Assembly: GCA_016124585.1 (NCBI GenBank)
Contig: WGNL01000031.1
Location: forward strand, 1-64,000
Direction: 5' to 3'
Source: Bacteroidota bacterium
Lineage (GTDB): Bacteria > Bacteroidota > Bacteroidia > Chitinophagales > Saprospiraceae
DNA length: 64,000 nucleotides
The stretch's first letter is position 1; every line of letters starts with the position of its first letter. The translations under genes were made by a program, and so were the position numbers. The notes below the pieces were generated by a model, which did no database searches, was not told the origin of the DNA, and saw only the letters and a list, made by a program, of their open reading frames with translations. Positions 11,129-49,649 of the stretch are shown here, piece by piece.

Positions 11129-11827
11129 ATGAAGTACATGTTTGCAATTGTGCTGTTCGTCATTTCGACCTTAGTTGCCTCAGCACAAAATTTCAAGGAA
11201 GACATCAAAAAAATGTACGGGGCCTATCAGAATGCCGAATCTTTTTATACAGAAATAAAAGTAGAGGCTTTTCATAATAGTCTTGACGAAAGACCCAAGT
11301 TTTCGAAAAAGGCAATAGTGCAGAAGCAAGGTAAAAAATACCTATACAAACTAGATGACATGACTACGCTCATCAACTCAAAATATCAAGTGGCAACTAT
11401 AGGTGCAAAGAAAATGATGATTGTACAGGATGTGGAAGAAGAACCAGTTTTGGAAAACATGCTTGTACAAAACCTAGACTCGCTTTTAGATAAAAACACC
11501 AAGATTACCTACAAAGGCATTGTTGATGGGCAAAAATGCTATCAAATATTGCAACCTGAAGGAAGCATGATAAGCAAGGTCGAGCTTTACCTTGCTCCTA
11601 GCACCTACTTCTTGACAAAAATGATTTATTGGACAGACTCGAAAGTTCTCAACCAGCAAGGCATTGTTGTAAGCACTTTTAAGGGCACTACAACAAAACC
11701 TGTATTTAATGAGGACACTTTTTCAGAGCGCCAATTTTTCTCAAAAAAGCAGGGAAAATATATTCCTGCCGTTGCGTACAAAAATTTTGAAATCATAAAT
11801 ACCAGCGATTATGATATCCAAGAGTAA
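11129..11827 (+). CDS. LolA-like periplasmic protein
   Basis: The 232-residue product has a signal peptide (MKYMFAIVLFVISTLVASAQ) and a mature part starting FKEDIKKMYGAYQNAESFYTEI. This resembles the opening helix and first strand of the LolA/LolB/RseB fold, followed by regularly spaced strands (KYLYKLDDM, KKMMIVQD, ITYKGIVDGQKCYQI, KVELYLAPSTYFLTKMIYW). LolA proteins carry lipoproteins across the periplasm, but this one is divergent and may instead bind another hydrophobic or unfolded client. It sits between the two giant YD/Rhs genes and its end overlaps the Rhs start by 17 bases. A dedicated role in exporting or assembling the Rhs pair is therefore inferred. The fold call is by pattern only. 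Confidence 0.55.
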   Translation: MKYMFAIVLFVISTLVASAQNFKEDIKKMYGAYQNAESFYTEIKVEAFHNSLDERPKFSKKAIVQKQGKKYLYKLDDMTTLINSKYQVATIGAKKMMIVQDVEEEPVLENMLVQNLDSLLDKNTKITYKGIVDGQKCYQILQPEGSMISKVELYLAPSTYFLTKMIYWTDSKVLNQQGIVVSTFKGTTTKPVFNEDTFSERQFFSKKQGKYIPAVAYKNFEIINTSDYDIQE

Positions 11828-14800: not shown

Positions 14801-17800
14801 GAACGGAGGAGGAGCAGATCCACTTTTTGCCAACCCAAACTGCTACAATTGCGGCGAAGCCGGCGAAGGCTGGTGGATGTATTACACCCTTCAGCACTTT
14901 GAGGACACAAACAACGATTATATCTTGGAATCAGCCATTTCAATAGCACAGAACCTCACAATAAATAGCATTGTCAACGGGCAGGCGGGTGACCCCAATA
15001 CGGGCGGGGCGACAAGCACGGAATACTGGGCAAACCGGGAGTGGAACTACTACAAAATGATGTACATAACTGCTAGGCAACGAGTTTTAGACCAGTGTCG
15101 AACAGAGTGTCCCTATGTTTTGGATGAGTGGGCAATTGTGCAAAAACCTTTGTCCAATGAGCCTTGCCCTCCAGGTACTCCACCTGGTGATTGTGATTCT
15201 TATTTTGATTTTGGGGGGACTGCCGACGACGATGCCAATGTATGGTCGAATAACCAGATAGAGGAGTTCAATAACAACAACCTTGAAGCACAGGCAGAAA
15301 ACTGGAGTGACGAAATCAATAATACTTTGAGTGATTGTAATATTAGCTTATCCAGCGCTGACCAGTTGAGCATACAATCATTATTAGAAGAATATTTCAC
15401 TTCTTTTTTTGAAGTTCCTGTTTCTATACCAGCGATACCTACTCCTCCAATTGGCGAAGGGATTTTGAACTGGGATGCCACAGACCCGGCAAACTCTACA
15501 GTGACTAATATGCCACTCCCCCCACCAAACCTCAACTTATACGAAGTGCCAAGTGCCAACAATTGGGAAGGTTGGTTCACCAATAAATTTAGCACCGTAG
15601 AAGGAGCCCCTCCTGGTTTATGCTTTTCAGACCTTGGTGCGCACGGAACAGTCGGGTTTTCTTTAGAAGAGAACTTGTTGAATGGAGCAACCCAATTCAG
15701 GATTACTGTGATAGGGGGGGCGCATCAGGCGGGTATGCTTGAAATGCCCCAACTATATGTGCTTCATGAGGGGGGCGAGCCAATTTATTGTGCTAAAAGC
15801 GATATTGGCCAAAATTATGCAACTATCACGATAGATTATATCAACCAGGGAGATCCCTACCGCTTTTATGTTTCCGGTCCGGATGGTATATTGGGTTGCT
15901 ACCCAGAAGATGAAAACAAGGGGGTTTTCAAACTGAAGATAGAAGTGGGTCCATTTCCAACCAATAGTGATGGTATCGAGATTACCACACTCGCACAAAT
16001 CAACCAGATAATAACCAGCTACAACTCTGATCCACAGTGCCAAACGAACGTGCTCAGCTCCTTGGCCAACCTAGGCATAGGAGGTCTTGCTACCTATGAA
16101 ACGAGTGATTGTTTTTGGGATTTTTTGGACATCATGAACTCCCAAGTACTACCAGTTATCAACAGCAACTGTAATTCTATCCCTACAGTTACTAGTCAGT
16201 CAACATGCTTTTCGTCTATAACCTATTCCAACTCCGACCCAAACAACAATAAAAACCCAGATGAAATCCAAGTCAATAACTTTTCGTGTCTTGATAATAC
16301 TAGTGGAAAACTATACTTGGTTAATGCATATGGCAACAAATTAAGGTGGTGCGATGCCTATAGAATGACCGATCCATCATTTTCACCATTTAATGGTATC
16401 CATTTAACCGATTTACACTATCTCGGAATCTCTGTTAATATATATTCAAACCAATCAGATACAGAACCTGAACGAGTATACTTGTTTGGGGGGACTAATA
16501 CTACTCCTTCTTTGTCCATTCCTTGCTTTATCCAGTGTGCAAAAGGTTTCACCGTCAGCCAGTCCCAAATGTTTGTGGATTGCAAGGAAGCTCTCGAAGC
16601 CGCTGCCATTGCTGAGGCAACTGAGGCTTGGCAAGCAGCCATCAGCATAGAAATGGCCGCTTACTATCAAAGTGCCAAGACGTGTATCAACAATGCTGTT
16701 GAACACTTCAACGTAAGATACCTGAACAAGGAATACCAATACACCCTATACTATTACAACCAGTCCGGTGACTTGGTACAGACTATCCCACCGGATGGAG
16801 TACACCTATTGCCGATAAGCGATCCTTATTTCAGAAAGGATCCTATCACGAACGAACAGACCGGCGAATGGATTGGTGGCAATGCCGAACCGCCACATAC
16901 CCAAAAGACTCAATATCGCTATAACACGCTTGGACAGGTTACTTGGCAACAATCACCGGACGGCGGCATGACGCAGTTTCACTATGATATCGCCAGCCGG
17001 CTCCGCTTGTCCCAGAATGCCAAGCAGCGGCCACTCGAATACTATTCCTATACCCGCTATGACCGCCAAGGACGCATCACGGAAGTAGGGCAAATAAACC
17101 ATGGCATGACCACCAACGATCCCGAAATCATCTACGGCATCGTGAACAACCCTGCATTCCCAGACCCCGTAGGTTACAGCCTGGAGCAACAAACCTTTAC
17201 GGAGTATGATAACCCAGACCCCACGCTGGTGGGTGTATTCGAACAAGAAAACCTACGGGGCAGAGTGGCAAAAAGCTCTAACGAGTTACTGAGCACCTAT
17301 TACAGCTATGACCCACACGGCAATGTCAAGTCCCTGTTGCACAGATATTCACATCAGATTGTCATCGACAATGACCTCAACCATGGTGGCGTTACCGAAA
17401 TAGAGGGTATCGGAGATAAACGCATTGACTACACCTACGACCTCATCAGCGGGAATGTCAATTCCGTCAGCTACCAAGAAGGACAGCCCGACCAGTTCTA
17501 CCACCGTTACGAATACGACGCCGACAACCGGCTAAAACGGGCCTATACCTCTGAGGACAGTTATATATGGGAAAACGACGCTCGTTATTTTTATTATACA
17601 CACGGCCCGTTGGCTCGGGTAGAACTGGGGCATGACAAGGTACAGGGCATGGACTATTACTACACCATGCAGGGCTGGATAAAGGGTGTCAATAGTATCA
17701 ATGTCGGGGGACAGCAACTATTAGACCCTGGCAAAGATGGCCACAATGACCCGGGCGCCATCATATTTAACCCTAACAGCTATGTGGCAAGGGATGAGAT

Positions 17801-19898
17801 GAGCTATTTCTTGGGCTACCATCAAGGTGACTATACTCCAGTGAGCAACGTTAGCATGGGCAACGCCCTCGCAAATGCTTGGAGTGACATGGCAGGTAAG
17901 ATACTTGACAACCCCAATTGGAGTGAAGGGCTCTTCAACGGCAACATTGCCCTGATGGCCACCCGTATCGGCGCTTTTGCACAAAACCCAACTGGCGTGC
18001 AATCTTTTGCCTACCAATACGACCAGTTGCACCGGATCAAGCAGGCTAATTCCTTCTATTTTGACGGACTCAACTGGAAGGACGAGAACAACGATCCTAA
18101 TTATATACCCTACACCACCTATTACGCTTACGACCCCAATGGTAATATCAAAAATCTGGCTCGAAATACCAACACAGGGAAGTTGGACAAACTGACCTAT
18201 GATTATAATACGACAGGCAAGCCAAACCAACTGACCTCGGTGACCGACCAAATACCGACTACTGCATATCCTGCCGACTTTGAAGGCACCAGCTCGTACC
18301 AGTACGATGCTATCGGCAACATCATTGCCGTACCCGAAGAACAGGTAGATAATATCCTGTGGACGGTGTACGGAAAAGTACAGGGCGTATATTATCCCAG
18401 CACCGTGGTGACCCAAGAGCGAAATATCAGCTATCGCTACGACCCCAGTGGCAACCGTGGCCTTAAGGTGAAAGGCAACAGCGGCCGGGAGATTGTGACC
18501 TGGTACGTGCGGGATGCTACTGGCAATGTGATGTCCGTTTACGAAAAAAACGTGAACGCAAGCCTACCACTGGTTCAGAAAGAAGTACCTTTGTATGGCA
18601 GTGCCCGTTTGGGTATGCGAAAGTTCTTTGAAGGCGAGAGGGACATGGAGAACCCTCCCCACTTATCGGATTATTACCGCTTACGAGGTAGGCGTGCCTA
18701 TGAGCTGAGCAACCACCTCGGCAATGTACTCACCACCGTGAGCGACCAAAAAGACGGTATAGCTGTAACTGACCCTTGGGTGGCCGAACACTACGAAGCC
18801 AAGTACCTGACCGCTACCGACTACTTCCCCTTCGGTATGGAAATGCCCGGAAGGGTGACAACACAGCCGGGCGCCTACCGCTATGGCTTCAATGGAAAAG
18901 AAAAGGACGAGGATGGGGAAATAGGCCTACTCACCAACTACGACTATGGGTTTAGGATTTACAACCCGGCGATTGCAAGGTTTTTAAGTGTGGATCCGTT
19001 GACACAGGAATACCCTTTTTATACACCTTATCAATTTGCTGGAAATATGCCGTCAGTTTTCATTGATTTAGATGGATTGGAACCAGCCGATGGCACGGTT
19101 GAAGCCAGAGATAATGTTCAAAGACCAATATTATTACCAATTGATGTGCCAACGGTATATAGAGAAGCTGTTCTTAAGGTCATGTTTAATGCAAATAATA
19201 AAACTTATGTTCCTGTCCCGGGGCCTGAAAAAATTGCGTATGACTTCTTTACGCATAAAATAATCCCGGAAAGGATGTCAGAAGCACCTGAAGCAGCACA
19301 AGATAGATATAGGTTATATGGAGTGGTTATAGAAAGTCTTTTCAGTACCGATCCTGAAGAAAATAAAAAAGCAGTTAAGACAATTAACCTTCCAAAAGAA
19401 AAATGGTACAACAATCAAATAGCACCTCTTGTTGTAGTTGCCCTTCCTGCTAATGCTGCAAGGAGTATGTTAAAGATGGCAGTGATTAGAACAACTTTAT
19501 TCGAAGGTGCGGAACAAGCAGTTTCTCTAGCAAGAACACTATGGAATGTTGGAAAAGGGAGAAATATAGCCATAGCAACAGGTGCAATTGGTGGAGAGGA
19601 CATACTATCAATTGGGATTAGTGGGGCGAAATCAACAAAAGCAGGTACAGCCGAAATCCCAACAACCAGAATATTTGCTGCTATTGAAGGCAGTGAATTT
19701 GATTCTGAAGTTAAAGTGCTTGAAGAAGTTGCCAAAAAATTCCTCAATAATCAGGAAGTCAAGGGATCAATCACTCTATTAACTGAACGACCAGCATGTA
19801 CTAGTTGCCAAGGAGTTATAAAGCAATTCATGGAAATGTTCCCAAATATTGAGTTGAAAGTACACAATGGAGTACCTCCATATGTAGCGCCAAAATAA
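11811..19898 (+). CDS. Rhs-repeat polymorphic toxin with C-terminal deaminase-fold tip
   Basis: This 2695-residue protein has an N-terminal export signal (cleavage likely after AMA). Beta-rich and fibronectin-like segments lead to YD repeats from about residue 1690 (YRYNTLGQV, FHYDIASRL, YTRYDRQGRI). The Rhs core follows: LSNHLGNVLTTVSD, DYFPFGM, YGFNGKEKDE (from 2358) and the terminal core DPLTQEYPFYTPYQFAGNMPS ending at LDGLEP (about 2424). The 270-residue tip is lower in GC. Its last 70 residues carry D2631-S-E2633 and P2661-A-C-T-S-C2666, the DxE and PxCxxC zinc motifs of the toxin-deaminase group (BURPS668_1122-like). The predicted activity is deamination of a nucleic-acid base or nucleotide in a competing cell. 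The SUKH gene downstream fits as immunity. The start overlaps the LolA-like gene by 17 bases. Confidence 0.85.
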   Translation: MISKSNHLRHRAPLLSAVILLAFNSLFVQLAMANDPYIGPALTYRVYHNIQDIETAFPACTGSPNSPCNLELEDPNASEDPITYDLDHRTGIVSFVYGKDLLSDVAGKYWWYKIYYSLVRYDAAGTEEVLETSAMLELKHDPDEGIYEDVKRYDLGTFIGLRLRIIGIETSVSTSGPPAPDADLPNDLRLELGMEVEKYYQFDTNTPPILSKEEQPNQELNKVALAWSYVLGAQEYELQYLYWDDYDQNAPPATDEELFRTATRITTWANWHELDLTYPSGKVYFRVRPIGRYTNDEGVNGDHSFKELGAWSEKEEVVINDNANIQNFEELKSWQFTASFAEDGKNKKVITYFDGSLRPRQVVTKLNDAHVALVAETDYSVEGQGTLSILPAPTNENNLFFKPNFNKNSANVAYSYRDFDKSTGADPLNTSAGAGKYFSGNNDVLGHLSDYIPMAAGFALTQVEYMRDGTGRMARQGGVGPLYQLSGPNGSNSAAYTHDTRYFYVNATETELRRLFGGNIGEAEHYKKQVVLDANRQASASYLDQTGKVVATSLMGNNPDNVQALDNIDPGEMVTLSLITDTPVDGMLKTSVNYIMNLEEAVGSQPTHTFVYNVDRLTNEIILHRGAYCKHCEYELEVTVKDPDGLPVALTRTTGANPPPYNNDIYKVVEFFPNNTSLGNPDCPMPSQDPTPNTDVTFTAIFNKIGSYEVTKILRMKQKSAEELFTELNVNGMLPDLQTEFIDPALEALDCSGCDFECSQYCYHQVMGFDVVPGTVPSQPQLDMIKECMATDCFEGISDAADAAAVNKCEGYLEAMKQQVTPGGTDISPADLAIDWDYFWNVIITPSNPLYFEDKDGIWYTWYDGSNVFEAYGGGANQTEIEILDGEEESIMNVPPGSPKLQPNKIDIQNRALTSEAFWQEQWVYELVKAHREYCFYEDCSRSCTLPNGTIVKPNIEGEAFIVKLAALESVAAVSTFLNLGAQNPTLAQIEAALVNQNGGGADPLFANPNCYNCGEAGEGWWMYYTLQHFEDTNNDYILESAISIAQNLTINSIVNGQAGDPNTGGATSTEYWANREWNYYKMMYITARQRVLDQCRTECPYVLDEWAIVQKPLSNEPCPPGTPPGDCDSYFDFGGTADDDANVWSNNQIEEFNNNNLEAQAENWSDEINNTLSDCNISLSSADQLSIQSLLEEYFTSFFEVPVSIPAIPTPPIGEGILNWDATDPANSTVTNMPLPPPNLNLYEVPSANNWEGWFTNKFSTVEGAPPGLCFSDLGAHGTVGFSLEENLLNGATQFRITVIGGAHQAGMLEMPQLYVLHEGGEPIYCAKSDIGQNYATITIDYINQGDPYRFYVSGPDGILGCYPEDENKGVFKLKIEVGPFPTNSDGIEITTLAQINQIITSYNSDPQCQTNVLSSLANLGIGGLATYETSDCFWDFLDIMNSQVLPVINSNCNSIPTVTSQSTCFSSITYSNSDPNNNKNPDEIQVNNFSCLDNTSGKLYLVNAYGNKLRWCDAYRMTDPSFSPFNGIHLTDLHYLGISVNIYSNQSDTEPERVYLFGGTNTTPSLSIPCFIQCAKGFTVSQSQMFVDCKEALEAAAIAEATEAWQAAISIEMAAYYQSAKTCINNAVEHFNVRYLNKEYQYTLYYYNQSGDLVQTIPPDGVHLLPISDPYFRKDPITNEQTGEWIGGNAEPPHTQKTQYRYNTLGQVTWQQSPDGGMTQFHYDIASRLRLSQNAKQRPLEYYSYTRYDRQGRITEVGQINHGMTTNDPEIIYGIVNNPAFPDPVGYSLEQQTFTEYDNPDPTLVGVFEQENLRGRVAKSSNELLSTYYSYDPHGNVKSLLHRYSHQIVIDNDLNHGGVTEIEGIGDKRIDYTYDLISGNVNSVSYQEGQPDQFYHRYEYDADNRLKRAYTSEDSYIWENDARYFYYTHGPLARVELGHDKVQGMDYYYTMQGWIKGVNSINVGGQQLLDPGKDGHNDPGAIIFNPNSYVARDEMSYFLGYHQGDYTPVSNVSMGNALANAWSDMAGKILDNPNWSEGLFNGNIALMATRIGAFAQNPTGVQSFAYQYDQLHRIKQANSFYFDGLNWKDENNDPNYIPYTTYYAYDPNGNIKNLARNTNTGKLDKLTYDYNTTGKPNQLTSVTDQIPTTAYPADFEGTSSYQYDAIGNIIAVPEEQVDNILWTVYGKVQGVYYPSTVVTQERNISYRYDPSGNRGLKVKGNSGREIVTWYVRDATGNVMSVYEKNVNASLPLVQKEVPLYGSARLGMRKFFEGERDMENPPHLSDYYRLRGRRAYELSNHLGNVLTTVSDQKDGIAVTDPWVAEHYEAKYLTATDYFPFGMEMPGRVTTQPGAYRYGFNGKEKDEDGEIGLLTNYDYGFRIYNPAIARFLSVDPLTQEYPFYTPYQFAGNMPSVFIDLDGLEPADGTVEARDNVQRPILLPIDVPTVYREAVLKVMFNANNKTYVPVPGPEKIAYDFFTHKIIPERMSEAPEAAQDRYRLYGVVIESLFSTDPEENKKAVKTINLPKEKWYNNQIAPLVVVALPANAARSMLKMAVIRTTLFEGAEQAVSLARTLWNVGKGRNIAIATGAIGGEDILSIGISGAKSTKAGTAEIPTTRIFAAIEGSEFDSEVKVLEEVAKKFLNNQEVKGSITLLTERPACTSCQGVIKQFMEMFPNIELKVHNGVPPYVAPK

Positions 19899-36467: not shown

Positions 36468-38597
36468 TCATGGTAGCTTGCTCAAGCCTTCGTAGCGGAG
36501 TTTCCAATTTTTTGGAAAACCACCAATGCCATCGTCCGTGCCTGTTGCCATCATTGCCAAGGCAGTGAGTAGCCCGCCGTTGCCGGGCAGGTAAAGCCTT
36601 AGCCGTCCTGTTTGGTAGTTGTGTCCATTTTTCAAATAGGTATTTGTCGTGACAGGCATTAGCAGAGCCTCCACTGCCCGTTCGGGATAGCCAAGCCGGC
36701 TGGCCGTCATGGCCGTCAATGGGAAATCCCATCCCCAGGTCTCGTCCCAATGCCAGTTCTTCCAGACTTTTTCAAAGGTGTTTTGCATGATTTTTTCATC
36801 CAATCCCTCCGTTAGTGGCAACATGCCAAACGCCCCCAATACGGCTGGGTGGTCAGTCATGTATTTGGGGATTTCGTAGCAGTCTTGGGCGTTCTCTGTA
36901 GCGAGGTACATTTTGTTCGCCTGCGGCAACGGGGAGAGTTTCCCCAAAATAGCATCCCATTTTTCAAGTCTTCCCTCTCCTGCCCTCTCCCGCCACTTTT
37001 GCGCCGTCTCCAGCGCCCAGCGCCAGTAGGCCAACTCGAAAGTTGGGTTGAATGTGGTCGCCGGATCGAAGCGCTCCTGCGCAGGAATGATGCCGGGGCC
37101 GAGAATATAGCGCCCTTGCAGTGAGTCATAACTCACAAAATCTGCCATGAATTCTGCGGTTTGCTCCAACAGTGGCAAGTATTTTTTTTGGTCAAAATCC
37201 TTCCCCTTGGTTCGCCGCAGCAACTCAGAGAAATAGATAAAATGTGGTTCTTGCCAAATCAGGTAGGAGCCAACGGAGGAAGCCGTTTCCCCACCCCATG
37301 GATCGGTCATTTTCTGCCAACGGACCCCGTCAAACCCTTGACACTCAGCGATCTGCTTCGCAACGGGCGCCGCCCGAAAATACCATTCCATTTGCTGCTC
37401 CAGTACCTGTGGCCTGCCCCAAAGGGCGAAATGTACACCATGCCACCACGCCATTTCCATGTGTGGCTTGCCGTACCAGGAGTTGTAGGTCAGACCTGTT
37501 TCCTGTGGCGGCGTGCTCCCGCCACAGTTGACGTGGGTGAGGTAAAGCGAAAGCACCATGCGCCGTTCCAGTTCAGCAGCACGAGTATCGGTTGTTTCCC
37601 CAAAATCAATCATGCCGCCGGATTGCCAGAACTGGTTGTAATCTTGGTTTACTTGTTTTCTAATTTTTGAAAATTTGAAGGCAAGTGGTGGGGTTTCATT
37701 TTCTGAAAAAGAGCAACCAAATTCCCAGCTGTTTTTTCCCATTTTTGGTTTTATGAAAAACCCTTTTTCGCTTTTGCCAGGAGGCTGGAGCTGGAGGTTG
37801 GAGTTGAAGGTTGTAAAATAAACGGTACTGTCCATCTGTCGCTTGATGGAAAAAGTCTTTGAATTGATGATATTGTACCGAAAACATTGTGAGTTGGAAA
37901 AGTCAAAATGAACAGCTTCATCAAGGAATTGGTCGGATGGGTAAGGATAATTCAAGTTTAGCCCAATACGGCCCAGCCCTACCAATTTACTGCTGATCTT
38001 CACCACCAATAAATCTGTTTGCTGGCTGACGATTGTGACGACCTCCACCTCCTCCCCTTCCACTTCGAAACGACTGCGCAGCTCGCCGTTCCACAAGTTC
38101 AAGGTTTGGTCAATGTTCTTGATGTCGGAAATAGTGGCTAGGCTGCCATCCGTCTTTTCAATCTCCCAGCCTACAGTTGCCAAATGTATCCGATGAGGGT
38201 TTTGGCGGAGGTAATTGGCAGCTTTGCCTGCACGCGTACTGTCAGGCCATTGGCGGGCATAGGGCACCTCACGATTGTTTGAAAGGAGTGGTTGAAGTGT
38301 CTCCTCTATCCTGTAGTTTTCAGAATTGGGGAAGCTGTGCCAACCCCACTCACTCTGAGTACCGAGGGGGATGCCTTTTTGATAGGATTCGGGGAATGTC
38401 TGCAAACCAGTTACGTCGAAAGTCATGGCAAAACGGCCATTGCCGAGGGTGAAGGCACAAAGCGTATCTGGTTCTGTGAGGTGAACATCGTGCCTGCCTA
38501 CGACGGCTTGGCGGTCAATTTTTTGACCAAAAACTACCGTACAGGACGCAACCAGTAAACCACAAAGTGTTTTTTGCAGAATGGACAAATTCCTCAT
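36468..38597 (-). CDS. Exported six-hairpin glycoside hydrolase, GH65-like
   Basis: The 709-residue product has a signal peptide (cleavage near VVFG|Q). An N-terminal beta-sandwich (DTLCAFTLGNGRFAMTFDV) is followed by a catalytic alpha/alpha barrel with TYNSWYGKPHMEMAWWHGVH, ASSVGSYLIWQEPHFIYFSELL, ATTFNPTFELAYWRWALE, and WNWHWDETWGWDFPLTAM-type segments. The GNGRFA opening and barrel helices fit the GH65/GH95/GH15 superfamily; GH65-like annotation is common for such proteins. The probable general acid is a Glu in the NPTFELAYW or MEMAWW segment. The substrate is unknown, but its place next to CE15 suggests an alpha-linked side group of xylan. It follows the CE15 gene by 12 bases. Confidence 0.7.
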   Translation of the reverse strand: MRNLSILQKTLCGLLVASCTVVFGQKIDRQAVVGRHDVHLTEPDTLCAFTLGNGRFAMTFDVTGLQTFPESYQKGIPLGTQSEWGWHSFPNSENYRIEETLQPLLSNNREVPYARQWPDSTRAGKAANYLRQNPHRIHLATVGWEIEKTDGSLATISDIKNIDQTLNLWNGELRSRFEVEGEEVEVVTIVSQQTDLLVVKISSKLVGLGRIGLNLNYPYPSDQFLDEAVHFDFSNSQCFRYNIINSKTFSIKRQMDSTVYFTTFNSNLQLQPPGKSEKGFFIKPKMGKNSWEFGCSFSENETPPLAFKFSKIRKQVNQDYNQFWQSGGMIDFGETTDTRAAELERRMVLSLYLTHVNCGGSTPPQETGLTYNSWYGKPHMEMAWWHGVHFALWGRPQVLEQQMEWYFRAAPVAKQIAECQGFDGVRWQKMTDPWGGETASSVGSYLIWQEPHFIYFSELLRRTKGKDFDQKKYLPLLEQTAEFMADFVSYDSLQGRYILGPGIIPAQERFDPATTFNPTFELAYWRWALETAQKWRERAGEGRLEKWDAILGKLSPLPQANKMYLATENAQDCYEIPKYMTDHPAVLGAFGMLPLTEGLDEKIMQNTFEKVWKNWHWDETWGWDFPLTAMTASRLGYPERAVEALLMPVTTNTYLKNGHNYQTGRLRLYLPGNGGLLTALAMMATGTDDGIGGFPKNWKLRYEGLSKLP

Positions 38598-41330: not shown

Positions 41331-41381
41331 CTTGAGTGGTTTTAAGCCAAAAATTTCAAACTTGCCGACATGCTAAGCGGT

Positions 41382-41412
41382 TTGACGGGCCAAGCCAGCC
41401 TTGGCCTGTCAA
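41382..41412. repeat. 13-bp inverted repeat, 5-base spacer
   Basis: TTGACGGGCCAAG (41382-41394) and CTTGGCCTGTCAA (41400-41412) are inverted copies with one mismatch that still allows a G-U pair in RNA. As DNA it could be an operator. As RNA it would be a very stable hairpin at the 5' end of the minus-strand thioredoxin transcript. No T run follows on either strand. Confidence 0.6.
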
Positions 41413-41613
41413 TTAACCACTTTGTACTAACTTGAATACCAGTGCTAAAAAGCATCTATTAAAATCTCGAACTCATATCCGTTTTTATCATGGAAACAAG
41501 ACCTTTCAGAGCCACTCTGGGCTGTTGCGAAACACATCAATCTCTCCTCAATTACCTACTGATTACATTGTAAATCCCTGAATTAAGCTGCAATAAAAGA
41601 ATTTTTATGAAAA

Positions 41614-41630
41614 TTACGCAATCGATTGAT
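41614..41630 (+). promoter_or_regulatory. Candidate operator upstream of the kinase-HTH gene
   Basis: The 17-base sequence TTACGCAATCGATTGAT has a palindromic core (CAATCGATTG). An identical 17-mer occurs at 44181-44197 in the early GH3 coding region, and a partial copy (TTACGCAGTC) at 43851-43860. It sits 9 bases before a TAATTTTG box, where an activator would bind a promoter that lacks a -33 element. The function is inferred. Confidence 0.35.
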
Positions 41631-41894
41631 TTTTCAAAATAATTTTGTGCTTCTCTCTGGCCAATCAGGGGAGGACAAACTGTCCACTTTTATTTGGCCG
41701 GGAAATGAAGCCAAAGCCAGCCTATTTCAGCGTTATCAAATTGAAATCTTTCCCATGATTTTCATCAAATCGGGCCAAAGGCAGCGTCTTGCACCTCAAA
41801 GCGGTTTGTTAAAGTGCATGCCAGTCAACAGGTTTTAGAAGAAGCTTTCCAAGCCTCATCAAAAGATTTAACCTAAACACAAACGATTCAGCCA

Positions 41895-43838
41895 ATGTAC
41901 CTTCTAGGTTACGACATCGGGAGTTCTACCATCAAAGCGGCGCTGGTAAATGCCAACACCCACCAGGTGGTTGGGCTTACCCATTATCCTGACCAAGAAA
42001 TGGACATGATATCGCGGCAACGTGGATGGGCCGAACAACAGCCGGAGGTGTGGTGGCAGGACTTGTGTGTGGCTACCCAGCGGCTTTTGGCCAAAACCAA
42101 GGTGAAAGCCAGCGAAATCAAAGGTATCGGCATTGCTTACCAGATGCATGGGTTGGTTTTGATTGACAAAGAGCAACAAGTGCTTCGCCCCTCTATCATC
42201 TGGTGCGATAGCCGAGCAGTAGCCATCGGGCAGCAAGCTTTTCATGAAATGGGCGAAAATTATTGCTTGCAGGAGCTGCTGAACTCTCCCGGAAATTTTA
42301 CCGCTTCTAAGCTGAAGTGGGTCAAGGACAACGAGCCCGATATTTATGAAAAGGCGCATAAACTCCTGCTGCCAGGCGACTTTATTGCCATGAAACTCAC
42401 GGGCGAGGCAGTGACCACCATTGCAGGATTGACCGAGGGTATATTTTGGAACTTTAAGGAGAAAGGCATATCCACCGAACTTTTGAAACATTACGAGCTA
42501 CGCAGTGACTTGATTGCTGAGACCGTTCCGACTTTTTCTGTTCAAGGCAAGGTTAGCAAGCTTGCTGCGGCCCGCACTGGCCTTGCCGAAGGCACTCCCG
42601 TTACTTACCGAGCAGGCGATCAACCCAATAACGCACTAGCCCTCAACGTGCTCCAACCTGGCGAGGTGGCCGCCACTAGTGGCACATCGGGTGTGGTTTA
42701 TGGCATCGTTGACCGTCCGGTTTTTGACATAAAATCCAGGGTTAACGCCTTTGCGCATGTCAATTACGAACAAAATCAAGACCGCATTGGCGTTCTGCTC
42801 TGCCTCAACGGGGCAGGAAGTGAGTACAGTTGGATTAAAAGTCAAGTAGCGCGTAGCGACCACTCCTACGGTGACATGGAGCGCATGGCATCTACCGTGG
42901 CAGTCGGTTCGGATGGACTCTGTGTGTTGCCCTTCGGAAATGGGGCCGAACGGGTGCTGGAAGACCGGAATCTTAATGCCCACATCTTCAACCTCGACTT
43001 CCTTCGCCATACCCGTGCACACCTGTACCGTGCCTCCCTCGAAGGTGTGGCCTTTTCATTTGTGCTTGGAGTAAACATCTTGAAGGAATTGGGATTGAAC
43101 GTAGATGTCATTCGGGTCGGCAACGACAATATGTTCCAATCAAAAATCTTCTCCATGACGATTGCCACCATGCTCAATAGCCAAATCGAAGTAGTGGACA
43201 CAACTGGTGCCGTTGGAGCTGCACGTGCAGCAGGTGTAGCTGCACGCATATATGGTTCATTGGATGAAGCCTTGAAAGACGTTCGCCCTGGTGCCGTTTA
43301 CGAGCCACAGCTGAACTTTGCACTTTGCCAGCAAGCTTACAATTACTGGTCTTCCCGCTTGCACTTGGCTATGGAAAAAGAAAACACCACCACAAGATCA
43401 GCTGGTTTTCACACCACATCAAATACCAAAAACCAAAACAAGGAACTGGCAGCGGCCAAACTACAACTTAATACCGCCAACGAATTTTTAGCTGAAATTA
43501 AATCAACGCTACTGCGTCAAGAACCCACTGCTATTTCAAAAATAATACAAAAGATTGAAGCCCAATTAGAAGACCACAACCAAGCATGGCAGGGATTCGA
43601 AGAACATTTCGACCTCTTGAACGATGGTTTCATCAAAAAGCTCAAAAAGCGCTTCCCTACCCTTTCGATGCAAGAACTAAAGCTCAGTGTCTACCTTAAA
43701 ATGAAGCTCACGACAAAGGAAATCGCACAACGCCTCAGCCTGTCGGCAAGGGGAGTTGAGACAGGACGTTATCGGCTTCGCAAAAAACTGGGCATTGAGA
43801 GCGGGGAAAACTTGGTGGCATTCCTAGAGGATTTTTAA
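41895..43838 (+). CDS. Xylulokinase fused to a C-terminal LuxR-type HTH module
   Basis: Residues 1 to about 496 of this 647-residue protein are a full FGGY xylulokinase, closely similar to the separate kinase encoded at 46458. It keeps the phosphate-binding D7 (GYDIGSSTIKA), substrate residues M84-H85 (YQMHGLV), the catalytic D242 (RAGDQPNNAL) and the TSGTSGVVYG and TGAVGAARAAG nucleotide loops. A polar linker (497-512) is followed by an alpha-helical stretch (LQLNTANEFLAEIKSTLL to about 575). The tail from 576 reads FEEHFDLLNDGFIKKLKKRF, then LSMQELKLSVYLKMKLTTKE and IAQRLSLSARGVETGRYRLR. This is the LuxR-like HTH that ends many Bacteroidota two-component-type and TPR regulators. The protein is probably a xylulose- or ATP-responsive regulator of this locus, perhaps still catalytic. 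Confidence 0.9.
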   Translation: MYLLGYDIGSSTIKAALVNANTHQVVGLTHYPDQEMDMISRQRGWAEQQPEVWWQDLCVATQRLLAKTKVKASEIKGIGIAYQMHGLVLIDKEQQVLRPSIIWCDSRAVAIGQQAFHEMGENYCLQELLNSPGNFTASKLKWVKDNEPDIYEKAHKLLLPGDFIAMKLTGEAVTTIAGLTEGIFWNFKEKGISTELLKHYELRSDLIAETVPTFSVQGKVSKLAAARTGLAEGTPVTYRAGDQPNNALALNVLQPGEVAATSGTSGVVYGIVDRPVFDIKSRVNAFAHVNYEQNQDRIGVLLCLNGAGSEYSWIKSQVARSDHSYGDMERMASTVAVGSDGLCVLPFGNGAERVLEDRNLNAHIFNLDFLRHTRAHLYRASLEGVAFSFVLGVNILKELGLNVDVIRVGNDNMFQSKIFSMTIATMLNSQIEVVDTTGAVGAARAAGVAARIYGSLDEALKDVRPGAVYEPQLNFALCQQAYNYWSSRLHLAMEKENTTTRSAGFHTTSNTKNQNKELAAAKLQLNTANEFLAEIKSTLLRQEPTAISKIIQKIEAQLEDHNQAWQGFEEHFDLLNDGFIKKLKKRFPTLSMQELKLSVYLKMKLTTKEIAQRLSLSARGVETGRYRLRKKLGIESGENLVAFLEDF

Positions 43839-43883
43839 GTATAAAAATGATTACGCAGTCAAGTTTTTTTTATTCCAATCACT

Positions 43884-43951
43884 TATTGACGTAGTGTTGG
43901 CGTATATAAAAAAAAGAATGGCGAAACTTTGCAGTACGTCAATATTTCGCC
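43884..43951 (+). promoter_or_regulatory. Nested inverted repeats in front of the GH3-xylB-xylA unit
   Basis: TATTGACGTA (43884-43893) and TACGTCAATA (43935-43944) are perfect 10-base inverted copies, 41 bases apart. The second copy lies inside the loop of another inverted repeat, GGCGAAA (43920-43926) and TTTCGCC (43945-43951). They could be two half-sites of an operator that loops DNA, or alternative RNA hairpins in read-through transcripts. They sit about 110-170 bases before the GH3 start. Confidence 0.45.
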
Positions 43952-43991
43952 AAGTGCATTCTGATTGCCTTTCTTTGTTTCGAAATGAAGT

Positions 43992-44025
43992 TTTGCGAGA
44001 ATTCTCACTGGTAAAATTGTCTTTG
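43992..44025 (+). promoter_or_regulatory. Possible promoter of the GH3-xylB-xylA unit
   Basis: TTTG (43992-43995), 22 bases and TGTCTTTG (44018-44025) fit the Bacteroidota pattern with one mismatch (G for A in the -7 box). The start point would be near 44032, about 25 bases before the first GH3 ATG. Confidence 0.4.
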
Positions 44026-44056
44026 TTAAAAAGGCAAATGACTTAAACTAAATGGT

Positions 44057-46432
44057 ATGAAACTTAAAGGGAGTAAGATGGAGGCGATCCGTCTGAGTTT
44101 GGCAACTTGTGTTGTGGCAGCTGTAACTGCCTTAAGTGCATTTGTCCAGCCTCACACTTCTCAGATAATTTATAAAGATGTTACGCAATCGATTGATATT
44201 AGGGTCAACGACCTTCTCTCCAAAATGACCCTCGACGAAAAGCTGGCACAAATTCAATGCATTTGGCAAAAAAAAGCAGCTTTTATCGACAAGAATGGCG
44301 ACCTCCTTCCCGACAGTGCCGCTGTTTACCTTAAAAATGGAATTGGACAAATTGGTCGACCCAGCGAAGGTTTTGACCGTTCGAAGAATACTGGCAGGAC
44401 TGCCGCTCAACAGGCCCGCTTTACCAACCAGATTCAAAAGTTTTTAGTAGAAAAAACTCGCCTCGGTATCCCAGCCATGTTTCACGAAGAATGCCTTCAC
44501 GGTCATGCTGCCAAAGATGCTACCAGCTTTCCGCAACCGATTGGCCTCAGCAGCACTTGGAACCGACAACTGGTAGAAGAACTATTCACCATGACCGCCC
44601 GGGAGGCGCGAGTGCGTGGTACGCAACAGGCACTCGCGCCTGTGGTGGACGTGGTGCGTGATCCACGGTGGGGCCGTACCGAAGAGACTTACGGCGAAGA
44701 CCCCTTTCTCTGTGGTGAAATCGGATTAGCGGCTGTTTATGGTTTTCAAGGTCGCGGAAAAACCATTGATAATGAACATGTGATGGCCACCCTCAAGCAC
44801 ATGACCGGGCACGGACAGCCTGAGGCAGGTAACAATATCAGCCCTGCCGACGTGCCGGAACGCATGGTGCGGGAAATGTTTTTGCCTCCTTTCAAAAAAT
44901 GTGTCCTGAAAGGAAACGTGCGTAGCGTGATGCCTTCTTACAATGAAATCGACGGGGTGCCAAGCCATGCAAGCAATTGGCTGCTCCACGACATCCTGCG
45001 TGGGGAATGGGGCTTCAAGGGCAATATCGTATCTGACTACTATGCTGTTCGGGAGTTGGCCGATCGTCACCACATTGTAGCCGACCACAAAGCTGCCGCT
45101 ATGTTGGCATTGACGACTGGTGTTGACCTAGAACTACCTGAACGGGAGGCCTACCCACTGTTGAAGGAAGTGTTTGAGAACAAAGAACTACCGATGGCTG
45201 TCCTCGACTCTGCCGTTGCTCGAAACTTGCGGCAGAAATTTGAACTAGGCCTTTTTGAAAATCCATACGCTGACGAGGCAAAAGCTGTAGTTGAGGTTGG
45301 GTCTGAAAAAAATGCAAAACTAGCACTCCATGCTGCCGAGGAAGCAATGATAATGCTTCAAGATAACAACGACCTTGCCCCGCTCAGCGCCAGCAAATAC
45401 AAAACAATTGCCGTAATCGGTCCAAATGCTGACAAGGAGCTGCTGGGTGGCTACAGTGACCATCCAAAATATTTTGTGACTGTGCTCCAAGGCATCAAGG
45501 AAAAACTGGGGGACAAAGCAAAAGTAATTTATGCAGAAGGTTGCGGGATTACACAGCCCGGTAGTTGGTACCTCGACCCTGTGCTGCCAACCGACCCTGC
45601 CGAAGACCGAAAAAAAATTGCCGAAGCTGTTGCTGTTGCGAAGCAAGCCGATATTGTCATACTAGCTGTTGGTGGCAATGAACTGACTAGCCGGGAAGCC
45701 TGGGCTGAGTCCCACCTCGGGGATCGCACGAGTCTGGAATTGGTTGGATTGCAAAATGAACTTATCAACCAAGTGGCAGCTACTGGCAAGCCAATCGTCG
45801 GCTTGTTGTTCAACGGCAGTCCACTTGCTATCCAAAATTTGGCAACCAAGACTTCTACGGTATTTGAATGCTGGTACTTAGGCCAAGAGTGTGGGCGGGC
45901 AGTGGCCAATGTACTCTTCGGCGACGTAAATCCAAGTGGCAAACTTACCATCAGCTTCCCACGCTCAGTAGGGCATATTCCAGCTTACTACAATTATAAG
46001 CCTACTGCTCGCCGGGGTTATCTCTGGGATGATGTGACGCCCCTATACCCTTTTGGATTTGGCCTGAGCTACTCCACCTATAATATAGGTGTACCAAAAC
46101 TAGCAAAAACTACCATTGACAAGCTTGAAAACGCCGAAGTGAGCGTAGATGTGACCAACACTGGAAAAGCAACAGGTAAAGAGGTTGTTCAACTTTATAT
46201 ACACGACAAAGTGAGCAGTGTGACTCGCCCAGTGAAAGAATTGAAAGGGTTTGAAAAAGTGGAATTGAAGCCCGGTGAAACAAAGACTGTGAAGTTCACC
46301 CTAACTCCAGAAGAACTGTCCATGTACGACATCAACATGAATTGGGTGGTGGAACCGGGGGAGTTTGAAATCATGGTGGGCAGTTCGTCCAGGAATGAAG
46401 ATTTGAAAACGACGGTTTTGACCGTGAAATGA
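44057..46432 (+). CDS. GH3 beta-xylosidase/beta-glucosidase, exported
   Basis: This 791-residue glycoside hydrolase family 3 enzyme has an N-terminal export signal. The first ATG is used; a second ATG at 44078 has a GGGAG purine run 8 bases upstream. The N-terminal TIM barrel shows RLGIPAMFHEECLHGH, APVVDVVRDPRWGRTEETYGED, ATLKHMTGHGQPEAGNN and the nucleophile D327 in NIVSDYYAV. The alpha/beta sandwich (GPNADKELLGGYSD, ILAVGGNELTSREAW) and the C-terminal fibronectin-like domain (VDVTNTGKATGKEVVQLYIHD) are complete. It releases xylose or glucose from the ends of oligosaccharides, presumably in the periplasm. Next to xylB and xylA, xylosidase activity is the likelier. A copy of the candidate operator lies within codons 42-47. 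Confidence 0.9.
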   Translation: MKLKGSKMEAIRLSLATCVVAAVTALSAFVQPHTSQIIYKDVTQSIDIRVNDLLSKMTLDEKLAQIQCIWQKKAAFIDKNGDLLPDSAAVYLKNGIGQIGRPSEGFDRSKNTGRTAAQQARFTNQIQKFLVEKTRLGIPAMFHEECLHGHAAKDATSFPQPIGLSSTWNRQLVEELFTMTAREARVRGTQQALAPVVDVVRDPRWGRTEETYGEDPFLCGEIGLAAVYGFQGRGKTIDNEHVMATLKHMTGHGQPEAGNNISPADVPERMVREMFLPPFKKCVLKGNVRSVMPSYNEIDGVPSHASNWLLHDILRGEWGFKGNIVSDYYAVRELADRHHIVADHKAAAMLALTTGVDLELPEREAYPLLKEVFENKELPMAVLDSAVARNLRQKFELGLFENPYADEAKAVVEVGSEKNAKLALHAAEEAMIMLQDNNDLAPLSASKYKTIAVIGPNADKELLGGYSDHPKYFVTVLQGIKEKLGDKAKVIYAEGCGITQPGSWYLDPVLPTDPAEDRKKIAEAVAVAKQADIVILAVGGNELTSREAWAESHLGDRTSLELVGLQNELINQVAATGKPIVGLLFNGSPLAIQNLATKTSTVFECWYLGQECGRAVANVLFGDVNPSGKLTISFPRSVGHIPAYYNYKPTARRGYLWDDVTPLYPFGFGLSYSTYNIGVPKLAKTTIDKLENAEVSVDVTNTGKATGKEVVQLYIHDKVSSVTRPVKELKGFEKVELKPGETKTVKFTLTPEELSMYDINMNWVVEPGEFEIMVGSSSRNEDLKTTVLTVK

Positions 46433-46457: not shown

Positions 46458-47939
46458 ATGTATCTACTCGGCTACGACATTGGCAGTTCATCCATCAAAG
46501 CAGCCCTAGTCCAAGCGGACACTGGTGCTGTGACGGCCGTCGTGCAGTATCCGGAGACGGAGATGAGCATGGTAGCCGTACAGCCCGGTTGGGCAGAGCA
46601 AGCACCCGAACTTTGGTGGGAGTGCGTTTGTGCTGCCACCAGAAAGCTACTCCAAAAAACCAATGCAGATACTGCTGAAATCAAGGGTATCGGCATCAGC
46701 TACCAGATGCACGGCCTCGTGGTAGTGGATAAAAATCATACGCCGGTACGCCCATCCATTATCTGGTGCGACAGCCGGGCTGTAGAAATCGGAAACCGGG
46801 CTTTTGATGAGATTGGCCACGACAAATGCCTCTCACACTTGCTCAATTCCCCCGGCAATTTCACAGCGACAAAACTAGCTTGGGTAAAGGAAAACGAACC
46901 CGTCCTTTTTGAAAAAATAGACAAGTTCATGCTGCCCGGCGACTATATCGCCATGCGGTTGACAGGTGAGGCAATGACTACACCAAGCGGGCTGTCCGAA
47001 GGCATTTTTTGGGACTTCTTGAAAAATGAGGTTTCGGAAACAGTACTTGATTATTTCGATTTTGACAAAAAACTCATCCCAACAATCGCCCCAACATTTT
47101 CATTGCAAGGTGAGTTATCGGCCGAAGCCGCTGAAGCTACTGGGCTTCGTAAAGGCATCCCAGTTGCATATCGGGCTGGCGATCAGCCAAATAATGCGCT
47201 CAGCCTGAATGTCTTGAACCCAGGAGAAGTAGCAGCCACTGGCGGCACTTCCGGTGTCGTGTACGGCGTAGTGGACAAGCCCGTTTACGACCCACAATCC
47301 AGGGTCAATGGGTTCGTTCATGTGACCCACCAAAAGGAAAAACCAAGGATCGGCATCCTGCTATGCATCAACGGAGCAGGCATCCAGTATAGTTGGGCAC
47401 GGCAAAACATGTCGGACAGTGGCAAACCTTACCCCGAACTGGAACGGCTGGCAGCTACAGTCCCAGTCGGGTCTGACGGTTTACGCATTTTGCCTTTCGG
47501 CAATGGTGCAGAGCGGATGTTAGAGAACAAAAGCCCCGGTGCCCATGTGAGCAACTTACAGTTCAACCGCCACAACAACGCTCATTTCTACCGGGCAGCA
47601 TTGGAGGGCATTGCATTTTCTTTTGTACATGGGGTGAAAATACTCCAAGACATGGGCGTGAACGCTGCCATGATGCGGGTAGGCAATGACAATCTATTTC
47701 AATCAGCAATTTTTTCAAACACCATTTCCAACCTGCTAGGAAACACCATTGAAATGGTGGAAACGACGGGTGCTGTCGGAGCGGCAAAAGCAAGCGGGGT
47801 GGCAACAGGGGTTTATGCTTCCGTTGAGGAAGCTATGAGTTACACCAATATTTTGAAAACCTATGAGCCCCAGAATGTCAACGGCATTTACAAGGAAGCT
47901 TTTGAGGCATGGCAGGAGGACTTGGCTAAAATCATTTAA
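46458..47939 (+). CDS. xylB: Xylulokinase
   Basis: This 493-residue FGGY-family sugar kinase phosphorylates D-xylulose with ATP, the second step of the isomerase pathway. It shows the same motifs as the kinase part of the protein encoded at 41895: GYDIGSSSIKAAL at the start, YQMHGLVVV for substrate, SPGNFTATKLAWVKENEP, YRAGDQPNNAL with the catalytic Asp, ATGGTSGVVYG and ETTGAVGAAKASG. It ends at the normal length, without the HTH tail. It sits 25 bases after the GH3 gene and 6 bases before xylA, clearly one unit. Its close likeness to the fusion kinase shows a local duplication. Confidence 0.95.
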   Translation: MYLLGYDIGSSSIKAALVQADTGAVTAVVQYPETEMSMVAVQPGWAEQAPELWWECVCAATRKLLQKTNADTAEIKGIGISYQMHGLVVVDKNHTPVRPSIIWCDSRAVEIGNRAFDEIGHDKCLSHLLNSPGNFTATKLAWVKENEPVLFEKIDKFMLPGDYIAMRLTGEAMTTPSGLSEGIFWDFLKNEVSETVLDYFDFDKKLIPTIAPTFSLQGELSAEAAEATGLRKGIPVAYRAGDQPNNALSLNVLNPGEVAATGGTSGVVYGVVDKPVYDPQSRVNGFVHVTHQKEKPRIGILLCINGAGIQYSWARQNMSDSGKPYPELERLAATVPVGSDGLRILPFGNGAERMLENKSPGAHVSNLQFNRHNNAHFYRAALEGIAFSFVHGVKILQDMGVNAAMMRVGNDNLFQSAIFSNTISNLLGNTIEMVETTGAVGAAKASGVATGVYASVEEAMSYTNILKTYEPQNVNGIYKEAFEAWQEDLAKII

Positions 47940-47945
47940 ACCTTA

Positions 47946-49262
47946 ATGAGCAAAAAAGAATACTTCAAGGGCATAGGGCGCATCCCCTACGAGGGACCAG
48001 AAAGCGACAATCCGCTAGCCTTCCGCTTCTACGATGAAAACCGGGTAGTGCGGGGCAAGCGCATGAAGGAGCATTTCCGCTTCGCAATGGCCTGGTGGCA
48101 CACCCTCTGCGGCACTGGTGGCGATCCGTTCGGCCCCGGCACAAAGGTTTTCCCTTGGATGAAGGCCAAAGATGCCAATGAGCAGGCCCGTGACAAGATG
48201 GACGCTGGCTTCGAGTTCATCACCAAGATGGGAATACCATACTACTGCTTCCACGATTTTGACCTCGTTGCAGAGGGTGAAACGCTCCAGGAAAGTACCA
48301 AGCGCCTAGAAAAAATAACGGATTATGCTGCCGAAAAGCAAAAAGAAACGGGCGTTAAGCTACTGTGGGGTACGGCCAACCTGTTCAGTCATCCCCGCTA
48401 CATGAATGGTGCAGCCACGAATCCCGACTTCGATGTGGTGGCCTATGCTGGCGCACAGGTGAAGAACGCGCTGGACGCCACCATCAAGCTGGGCGGTGCC
48501 GGCTATGTTTTTTGGGGCGGCCGTGAGGGCTATATGTCGCTGCTGAACACTGACATGAAGCGGGAACTAGACCACCTCGCCCGCTTCCTGCACATGGCGA
48601 AAGACTATGCGAGGAAACAGGGCTTTAAAGGGACATTCTTCATTGAGCCGAAGCCGATGGAGCCCAGCAAGCACCAGTACGACTTTGATGCAGCGACATG
48701 TATCAATTTTTTGCGGGGCAACGGGCTAGACGGAGACTTCAAGCTGAATCTAGAGTTCAACCACGCGACGCTTGCACAGCACACGATGCAGCATGAAATG
48801 CAGGTGGCAGCTGACGCTGGGATGTTGGGCAGCCTAGATGCTAACAGGGGTGACTACCAAAATGGCTGGGATACTGACCAATTTCCAAACAACGTAGTAG
48901 AGCTGACGGAAGCCATGCTGGTACTGCTAGAGTCAGGGGGGCTTCAGGGCGGCGGTGTAAACTTCGATGCTAAGACCCGCCGGAACTCAACGGACTTGGC
49001 AGACATTTTCTACGCCCACATCGGGGGCATGGACGCCTTTGCTAGAGCATTGGTAGCAGCAGACGGCATCCTGGAAAAGTCGGAATATGGCAAGTTGAGG
49101 GCAGAACGCTATGCCTCATTCGACAAAGGCAAGGGCAAGGATTTCGAGAAAGGAAAGCTGTCTTTGAAGGACTTGGCGAAGATTGCAGAAGTGGTTGGAG
49201 AGCCAAAGCAGCGCAGCGGCAAGCAGGAACTTTTTGAGAATATCATTAATCGGTTCGCTTAA
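47946..49262 (+). CDS. xylA: Xylose isomerase
   Basis: The 438-residue product is a typical class II xylose isomerase, which converts D-xylose to D-xylulose in the cytoplasm. It has the metal-site signature [21 protein letters not shown], the segments [18 protein letters not shown] and [21 protein letters not shown], and [20 protein letters not shown] with the second set of metal ligands. Length and motifs are complete. It starts 6 bases after xylB and is followed by a strong hairpin, so it ends the catabolic unit that begins with GH3. Confidence 0.97.
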
Positions 49263-49649
49263 ATACTAAGAGGTCGGAGAAAGTCTTGACCCTAGCTTAC
49301 TTATTGTTTCATATTTACCAAAAGCGCCCAGCAAAAGTGGATGCTGGGCGCTGAATTTAACGTTTGTGCTGTGTTAAAATGATTTGCACAAATATCATTT
49401 CAGATTTTGAAGCCCAATGAGTAATTATGCGCTAGAATGGCAGACTTTCAAATTTTTATATCCATTTTGTTTGTTATTGCAGAATAAACAACATCGTCAA
49501 ATACTACAAAGAGCAATCATTTTTTCAATCACTTAATAATTGTAATCATGAAACTTTCAGTTTACTCTCATCACAAAAAAGCACCGCCCTGATTAGGAAT
49601 AGTCAGTGTAATGCATGAAACAAAAACAATAACTTAATTTCTCCAACTT
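49263..49649. other. 387-bp intergenic region between xylA and susC
   Basis: It holds the hairpin at 49323-49352 and then about 300 AT-rich bases that should contain the susC promoter. No box matching TAnnTTTG with a spaced TTG stands out. The segment CAATCACTTA (49528-49537) also occurs at 43876-43885, upstream of the GH3 gene, and might be a shared control site. No gene was found. Confidence 0.5.
49323..49352 (+). terminator. Hairpin after xylA
   Basis: AGCGCCCAGCA (49323-49333) and TGCTGGGCGCT (49342-49352) form a perfect 11-bp GC-rich stem with an 8-base loop, 60 bases after the xylA stop. The T run is missing, so it may act as a partial terminator or protect the xylA mRNA end while susCD is read from its own promoter. 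Confidence 0.6.

Follow-up and report, generated by a model that had tools for sequence, protein, structure and literature searches.

A xylulokinase-type kinase fused to a GerE/LuxR-type helix-turn-helix in Saprospiraceae and Cytophagales: a probable regulator of xylose and xylan use

The fused gene and its product

The window, i.e., the whole stretch of 64,000 nucleotides of a Saprospiraceae genome that was analysed, contains an uninterrupted open reading frame coding for a 647-residue protein in which a xylulokinase-type FGGY kinase is followed by a C-terminal helix-turn-helix (HTH). A gap of 218 bp (43839–44056) separates the fused gene from a GH3 glycoside hydrolase gene, which is followed by xylB, xylA, susC and then susD. 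The genes, and the parts of the fused protein, are located as follows:

41895..43838, + strand: fused gene, xylulokinase-type FGGY kinase with C-terminal HTH, 647 residues (uninterrupted reading frame, Pfam, relatives, tree)
41898..42629, + strand: FGGY_N domain, residues 2–245, containing D7, M84-H85 and D242 (Pfam, alignment)
42669..43244, + strand: FGGY_C domain, residues 259–450 (Pfam)
43317..43517, + strand: long helix, residues 475–541, leading from the kinase to the HTH (AlphaFold2 model, low confidence at 499–510)
43665..43817, + strand: GerE/LuxR-type HTH, residues 591–641 (Pfam, alignment, AlphaFold2 model)
44057..46432, + strand: GH3 glycoside hydrolase gene, the first after the putative sites described below (best models beta-xylosidases, below cut-offs)
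46458..47939, + strand: ordinary xylulokinase gene xylB, 25 bp after the GH3 gene (reading frame, Pfam)
47946..49262, + strand: xylose isomerase gene xylA, 6 bp after xylB (TIGR02630, 675.8 bits as compared to a cut-off of 533.25 bits)

All three Pfam domains of the fused protein scored above their own gathering scores, with E values of 2.3e-47 for FGGY_N and 2e-12 for FGGY_C, and with 24.7 bits for GerE (gathering score, 23.5 bits). In the alignment, D242 pairs with the aspartate of the GGGD motif of E. coli xylulokinase (2itm), and the best PDB matches of the fused-protein model, as found by Foldseek, are xylulose and glycerol kinases, including 3ifr and 2itm. Reading frame and Pfam results confirm an earlier note on this DNA, which had described a single 647-residue frame with an FGGY kinase (D7, M84-H85, D242) and a subsequent HTH; the very similar ordinary xylulokinase which it had placed 2.6 kb downstream, beside xylA, is present as well and shows 58% identity over residues 1–489.

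The fused protein missed the cut-off of TIGR01312, the NCBIfam XylB equivalog model (297.3 vs. 380.25 bits). Since the product of the neighbouring xylB gene likewise remained below it (297.5 vs. 380.25 bits), this cut-off cannot separate the fused kinase from an ordinary XylB. Where E. coli XylB has its GGG motif, both kinases (41895–43838 and 46458–47939) show VGNDN[ML]FQS in the alignment. Both also score about 80 bits below the cut-off, and XylB of the Bacteroidota type may represent a distinct subfamily. Elsewhere in the window, a 709-residue protein without a Pfam match at E ≤ 1e-4 is encoded beside a glucuronyl-esterase-like gene (36468–38597, – strand), and two very long reading frames on the + strand (4109–11011 and 11811–19898) correspond to 2300 and 2695 residues.

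In the AlphaFold2 model of the fused protein (38 sequences; mean pLDDT 84.3, pTM 0.73), helix 475–541 continues the last helix of the kinase, with pLDDT values <50 at residues 499–510, and is followed by shorter helices and by the HTH helices at 592–632. Residues S617, R619, G620, E622, T623, R625 and R627 of the HTH, including those of the recognition helix, are invariant in the 38 sequences. Sequence identity among fused proteins amounts to 58% in the HTH and to 20% in the linker (residues 492–570). The closest relatives of the tail in the source genome are the ends of two proteins (L005 and L006; 36–43% identity), whose sensor parts comprise propeller repeats in both and a Y_Y_Y domain in one; Pfam matches to a Reg_prop or Y_Y_Y sensor were not found in the fused protein. 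Because the nearest tail relatives are the ends of propeller proteins, it seems that a kinase took the place of a propeller-type sensor in the fusion event. One scan of viral contigs with single-sequence patterns did not reveal relatives of the tail. About 35 further HTH-tail matches, many of them in reading frames of about 90–130 residues clustered on contig C32, were observed in G1127, the genome of L087 (Roseivirga sp. FE80, see below).

Distribution and origin of the fusion

The fusion is present in 14 out of 150 genomes of the Saprospiraceae, the source genome included; 13 of these carry full-length fused genes, and the gene of the fourteenth (G107) is interrupted by contig ends. Another genome of the family (G065) contains a frameshifted fused gene. 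Searches at the order, class and phylum level yielded fused genes in 11 of 298 genomes (E ≤ 1e-150), 2 of 395 genomes (E ≤ 1e-170) and 1 of 395 genomes (E ≤ 1e-160), respectively, the last being the source genome itself. Besides numerous metagenome-assembled genomes (MAGs), the carriers include Flavilitoribacter nigricans DSM 23189, Fulvivirga kasyanovii, Fulvivirga marina, Marinoscillum furvescens DSM 4134 and Marinigracilibium pacificum. Full-length relatives with 52–78% identity occur across many genera and in cultured strains. An assembly error joining two genes near position 43380 is ruled out as an explanation, its probability being negligible, by the occurrence of the same fusion at full length in many independent assemblies and cultured strains, and by the grouping of the fused kinases in one clade.

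This grouping emerged from a quick kinase-domain tree of 122 sequences, with SH-aLRT support only and without bootstrap, from which kinases with <40% identity, or starting past query residue 60 or ending before residue 430, were excluded. All 38 fused proteins, together with the contig-cut L081 and with L087, whose tail has decayed, form a single clade of 40 (SH-aLRT 96) that covers Saprospiraceae and Cytophagales, and the neighbouring xylB of the window belongs to another clade, indicating that the fusion arose once, well before the source genome. The tree does not separate losses from transfers. Local duplication, from which the earlier note had derived the fused gene, is not supported by this tree. 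The source genome encodes three XylB-class kinases, namely the fused protein, its neighbour (58% identical) and a protein on contig C15. The last belongs to a second xylB-xylA pair (L051:8318–12458), which has a mannonate dehydratase gene (UxuA) ahead of it and lacks the repeat described below. Bacteroidota-type xylB-xylA genes were also observed on a Lachnospiraceae-labelled contig in a record named Roseburia sp. MAG (L137), which may reflect contamination or transfer.

A direct repeat at the fused loci

Fused genes have in common, in their upstream regions, an 11-bp direct repeat, TTGACGTA-N3-TTGACGTA, which was first spotted by eye. In the window, the following elements were located in the gap between the fused gene and the GH3 gene:

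43886..43904, + strand: direct-repeat site R1-R2, TTGACGTA GTG TTGGCGTA, the one place in the source genome where the degenerate pattern matches exactly
43918..43936, + strand: weaker pair R3-R4 (ATGGCGAA AAC... TTGCAGTA), 32 bp after R1, five mismatches to the R1-R2 consensus
43935..43953, – strand: third, inverted site TTGGCGAA ATA TTGACGTA, matching the pattern with ≤1 mismatch
43970..43977, + strand: promoter-like TTTCTTTG, its TTTG 88 bp past the start of R1

A second pair 32–33 bp beyond the first recurs in at least ten other loci, and the near relative L074 has an inverted site at the same 48-bp offset as the window. With ≤1 mismatch, the pattern matched the source genome four times and the reversed control not at all; two of the four matches are situated in the 218-bp gap before GH3-xylB-xylA, and the other two on contigs C16 and C30. 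A plain count in the window alone (≤3 mismatches) gave two matches as compared to 2.57 expected, i.e., no more than chance, and it is the quality and the position of the window sites that matter. Upstream of the window's own fused gene (41331–41894) and before susC (49263–49649) the repeat was not found, the best matches having five and seven mismatches, respectively. The earlier note had put forward 41331–41894 and 43839–44056 as DNA to be tried for binding; the repeat is present in the latter, ahead of GH3-xylB-xylA, and control of the fused gene through the former is not supported in this genome.

Across genomes, 25 of 39 fused genes have the repeat (≤3 of 16 mismatches) in the 120 bp ahead of them, with 0.03 expected in first-order random sequence, and 17 of 38 have it in the 500 bp that follow (0.30 expected); 29 of 39 have it in either or both places. 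The scored stretches of the remaining ten are devoid of a site, where scoring skips sites that span a start or stop codon, as found in three of the ten (L127, L086 and L059), and does not reach those at operon heads. The repeat precedes the fused gene, its neighbours (xylB-xylA, xylA, susC-susD or GH3 genes), or both. It also occurs within 500 bp upstream (≤3 mismatches) of 11 out of 22 unfused xylB genes of fusion-labelled genomes (the label of L128 being provisional), as compared to 2 out of 55 others, one of which (L109) is from a genome with a frameshifted fused gene.

A position weight matrix, for which 17 sites ahead of fused genes and the window site served as training set (18 in all), gave 52 matches with scores ≥17 in 35 fused loci (548 kb), whereas the 46 unfused loci (691 kb) yielded four and random sequence 0.4; motif and promoter distance were both derived from inspection of these same loci. 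Three of the four matches in unfused loci precede xylB in fusion genomes, namely one in L104 and two overlapping ones in L134 of Marinoscillum furvescens, and the fourth is inside a gene. In a set of hand-picked, non-random genomes from earlier listings, the exact degenerate pattern was present in 18 of 39 fusion genomes (23 sites), and absent from 21, as compared to 1 of 40 genomes without the fusion; matches to the reversed control were seen in four of the 39 and in one of the 40. Among the 23 sites, 12 are upstream of the fused gene, five between it and the next gene, and four ahead of an unfused xylB, which is on another contig in three cases and one gene away in the fourth; one precedes a GH26-GH3 cluster, and one lies within an unrelated reading frame. 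This last match, in G1124, and the one within an unrelated reading frame of G037, a genome without the fusion, are probably due to chance. The repeat, accompanied by another pair and, at 88 bp, by a TTTG, also stands ahead of a GH26 gene with an adjoining GH3 gene in genome G1106 (L183:5149–6478, contig C170), a probable distant member of the predicted regulon.

In a clade of five MAGs in which the fused gene is the sole XylB-class copy, a site (matrix scores 13.8–21.2) was found 146–152 bp before susC in all three MAGs whose contig covers the region; the contig begins too late in the other two. This site heads the operon susC-susD-SGBP-984 aa-GH10-GH3-kinase/HTH(-xylA).

The sequence TTTG occurs 87–89 bp past the start of the repeat in 20 of 33 operon sites, as compared to 1–6 of 33 sites for other 11-bp windows, the window of 82–92 bp having been picked after viewing the alignment. 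The –7 box of Bacteroidota promoters is TAnnTTTG, which we take the TTTG downstream of the operon repeats to resemble. Since the operon repeats stand upstream of TTTG at a fixed distance, activation from upstream is favoured. Sites before fused genes usually consist of a single pair, at a distance of 18–82 bp to the start codon. The first TTG of the site coincides with an exact TAnnTTTG in 8 out of 27 cases; this position near the start codon, partly on the presumed –7 box, would suit autorepression.

Regulator, enzyme, or both

Residues D7, K14, Q83, M84, H85, D105, R107, N130, D242 and T264-S265-G266 are identical in all 40 fused-type kinases and in the 82 other kinases. S11 of the phosphate loop is altered in 5 of 40 fused kinases as compared to 0 of 82 others, and L103 additionally carries S10N and G263D. 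L103, L099 and L059, in which the changes are harsher, are each encoded in a genome that has a second, unfused copy. Between the same 20 genomes, mean kinase-domain identity is 65% for the fused and 59% for the unfused copies, and the fused ones are more alike in 179 of 190 genome pairs, which are non-independent and whose unfused copies are perhaps not orthologous.

Among 22 genomes whose fused gene is intact, 17 gave a second XylB-class match. In the other five (L077, L088, L105, L110 and L120; all MAGs) it was absent at E ≤ 1e-60, and their other FGGY matches were 23–27% identical or lacking at E ≤ 1e-5. All five have the fused gene directly ahead of xylA and form one clade nested inside the fused clade. 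A MAG could miss a second copy, yet the agreement of five out of five is suggestive. In a MAG of Roseivirga sp. FE80, the frame of a fused-type kinase (L087:8905–11100) ends ahead of the tail, remnants of which are visible downstream; this kinase is the only XylB-class match in its genome.

In genomes with two copies, the fused kinase might act purely as a ligand-binding domain, xylulose 5-phosphate being formed by the unfused XylB. The frequency of second copies and the altered phosphate loops are in line with such a sensor, but the conservation of D7, M84-H85, D242 and T264-S265-G266 in 40 of 40 proteins, the higher similarity among fused kinase domains and the five MAGs with the fused copy alone argue against it, and we regard this reading as possible without favouring it. 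Since the catalytic residues are kept and five genomes are without another XylB-class kinase, the fused protein probably still functions as an enzyme in some lineages, most likely where it is the only copy. The view of a kinase turned transcription factor, put forward in the earlier note, thus holds with respect to the regulatory role, but for the same two reasons may be only half of the story.

Since the matching repeated site stands before xylose/xylan genes, the fused enzyme is probably the switch of these genes, i.e., a xylulokinase that has become a regulator of xylose/xylan use or serves as one besides its enzymatic role. With a conserved direct repeat that tracks the fused gene and precedes the adjacent genes, the regulatory role suggested in the earlier note is very probable. 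As to its form, we consider it likely that the protein is a cytoplasmic one-component regulator with the xylulokinase as sensor and an HTH that reads the repeat. Once and long ago, a xylB-type FGGY kinase would have acquired the cytoplasmic end of a propeller/Y_Y_Y-type regulator, consisting of a helical stalk and a GerE-type HTH. This HTH is predicted to bind TTGACGTA-N3-TTGACGTA; at operons, one pair, often with a weaker second one 32–33 bp on, upstream of the promoter TTTG would mediate activation, and at the promoter of the fused gene a single pair near the start codon would mediate autorepression. Xylulose in the kinase site, alone, with nucleotide or during turnover, would alter the HTH via the helix; with a linker of about 20% identity and low model confidence at 499–510, this signal path is weakly constrained.

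The regulator reading is weakened by the window's fused gene, which has no upstream site, by the ten fused genes whose scored stretches lack a site and by the 21 genomes without an exact match. Fused genomes also encode other proteins with related HTH tails, so that a different regulator might read the motif, the fused protein being an enzyme whose tail only oligomerises or plays a minor role. Such a reader would, however, have to share the patchy distribution of the fusion, and considering that the exact motif tracks the fused gene (18 of 39 vs. 1 of 40 genomes), lies beside it in most loci, and is accompanied by invariant recognition-helix residues, we judge this alternative to be quite improbable. 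Alternatively, the fused protein could repress the GH3-xylB-xylA operon until released by xylulose. Many sugar regulators are repressors, and the sites of fused genes near or on the presumed –7 box would fit, but the fixed position of the operon pairs upstream of TTTG in 20 of 33 sites speaks for activation, which makes repression of the operon unlikely, if less so than a separate reader of the motif.

For yeast Gal1/Gal3, an enzyme or its duplicate serves gene control, Gal3 lacking a DNA-binding domain. Tentatively, and with less confidence than for the one-component regulator as such, we suggest a Gal1/Gal3-like role combined in a single polypeptide: an active xylulokinase whose catalytic cycle would set the state of the DNA-binding tail, activating xylose/xylan operons via the 11-bp direct repeats and limiting its own synthesis. 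Beside an unfused xylB, it would be free to give up catalysis and turn into a pure sensor, with first signs in L103, L099 and L059, and it would have replaced xylB in one lineage, inside a susC-susD-GH10-GH3-kinase/HTH-xylA operon. Enzyme-derived regulators are usually visible only as end products. One clade here seems to show stages, from the fused kinase alone, or beside an ordinary one, to an altered phosphate loop and a decayed tail. The predicted operators and promoter geometry make control of DNA binding by a catalytic site testable in cultured environmental bacteria, and for those Saprospiraceae and Cytophagales in which the fusion occurs, it provides a candidate regulator of xylose/xylan use together with a candidate regulon.

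The fused protein would be an enzyme-derived one-component regulator and possibly a trigger enzyme, to which the conserved catalytic residues, the sole-copy genomes and the accompanying motif point indirectly. Trigger enzymes with their own DNA-binding domain include PutA, BirA and NadR; these proteins and Gal1/Gal3 resemble the fused protein in that an active enzyme or its duplicate is employed in gene control, and to our knowledge an FGGY kinase with a C-terminal GerE HTH is not among them. Regulators of the ROK family are relatives of sugar kinases with an HTH that control sugar genes, but they belong to a different kinase family and have the HTH at the N-terminus; the Pfam search of the fused protein yielded FGGY domains and the C-terminal HTH only, and no ROK domain with an N-terminal HTH. 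The propeller/Y_Y_Y regulators of the source genome (L005 and L006) have a C-terminal stalk and GerE-like HTH of the same kind and differ in the sensor. Titles and abstract openings of the open-licence PMC literature, i.e., subscription papers and preprints aside, contained no report of a xylulokinase or FGGY-HTH fusion, and the accessible part of a 2024 review on hemicellulase gene regulation names no kinase-HTH fusion (PMC10766802).

BzdR of Azoarcus is described as consisting of an HTH-XRE domain joined to a shikimate-kinase-like domain, with benzoyl-CoA as effector, and its loss of kinase activity is called essential (PMC3602430). BzdR is similar in that the fold of a small-molecule kinase is the effector domain of a one-component regulator, as proposed here; its P-loop fold and N-terminal HTH contrast with the FGGY fold, C-terminal HTH and conserved catalytic residues of the fused protein. 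In Bacteroides, control of xylose and arabinose genes has been ascribed to regulators of the NrtR type, whose sensor is Nudix-like and of which the AraR proteins are described as probably enzymatically inactive (PMC4666351, PMC3878776). XylR (BT0791) and AraR, as presented there, likewise regulate pentose genes in Bacteroidota, derive their sensor from an enzyme and have their genes next to those of the pathway, but combine a Nudix-type sensor with a winged HTH instead of an FGGY kinase with a GerE HTH. Pfam matches to NUDIX or NrtR winged-HTH domains were not found in the fused protein. Among the genes directly upstream of unfused xylB (44 scanned), eight encode NrtR domains and four GntR domains.
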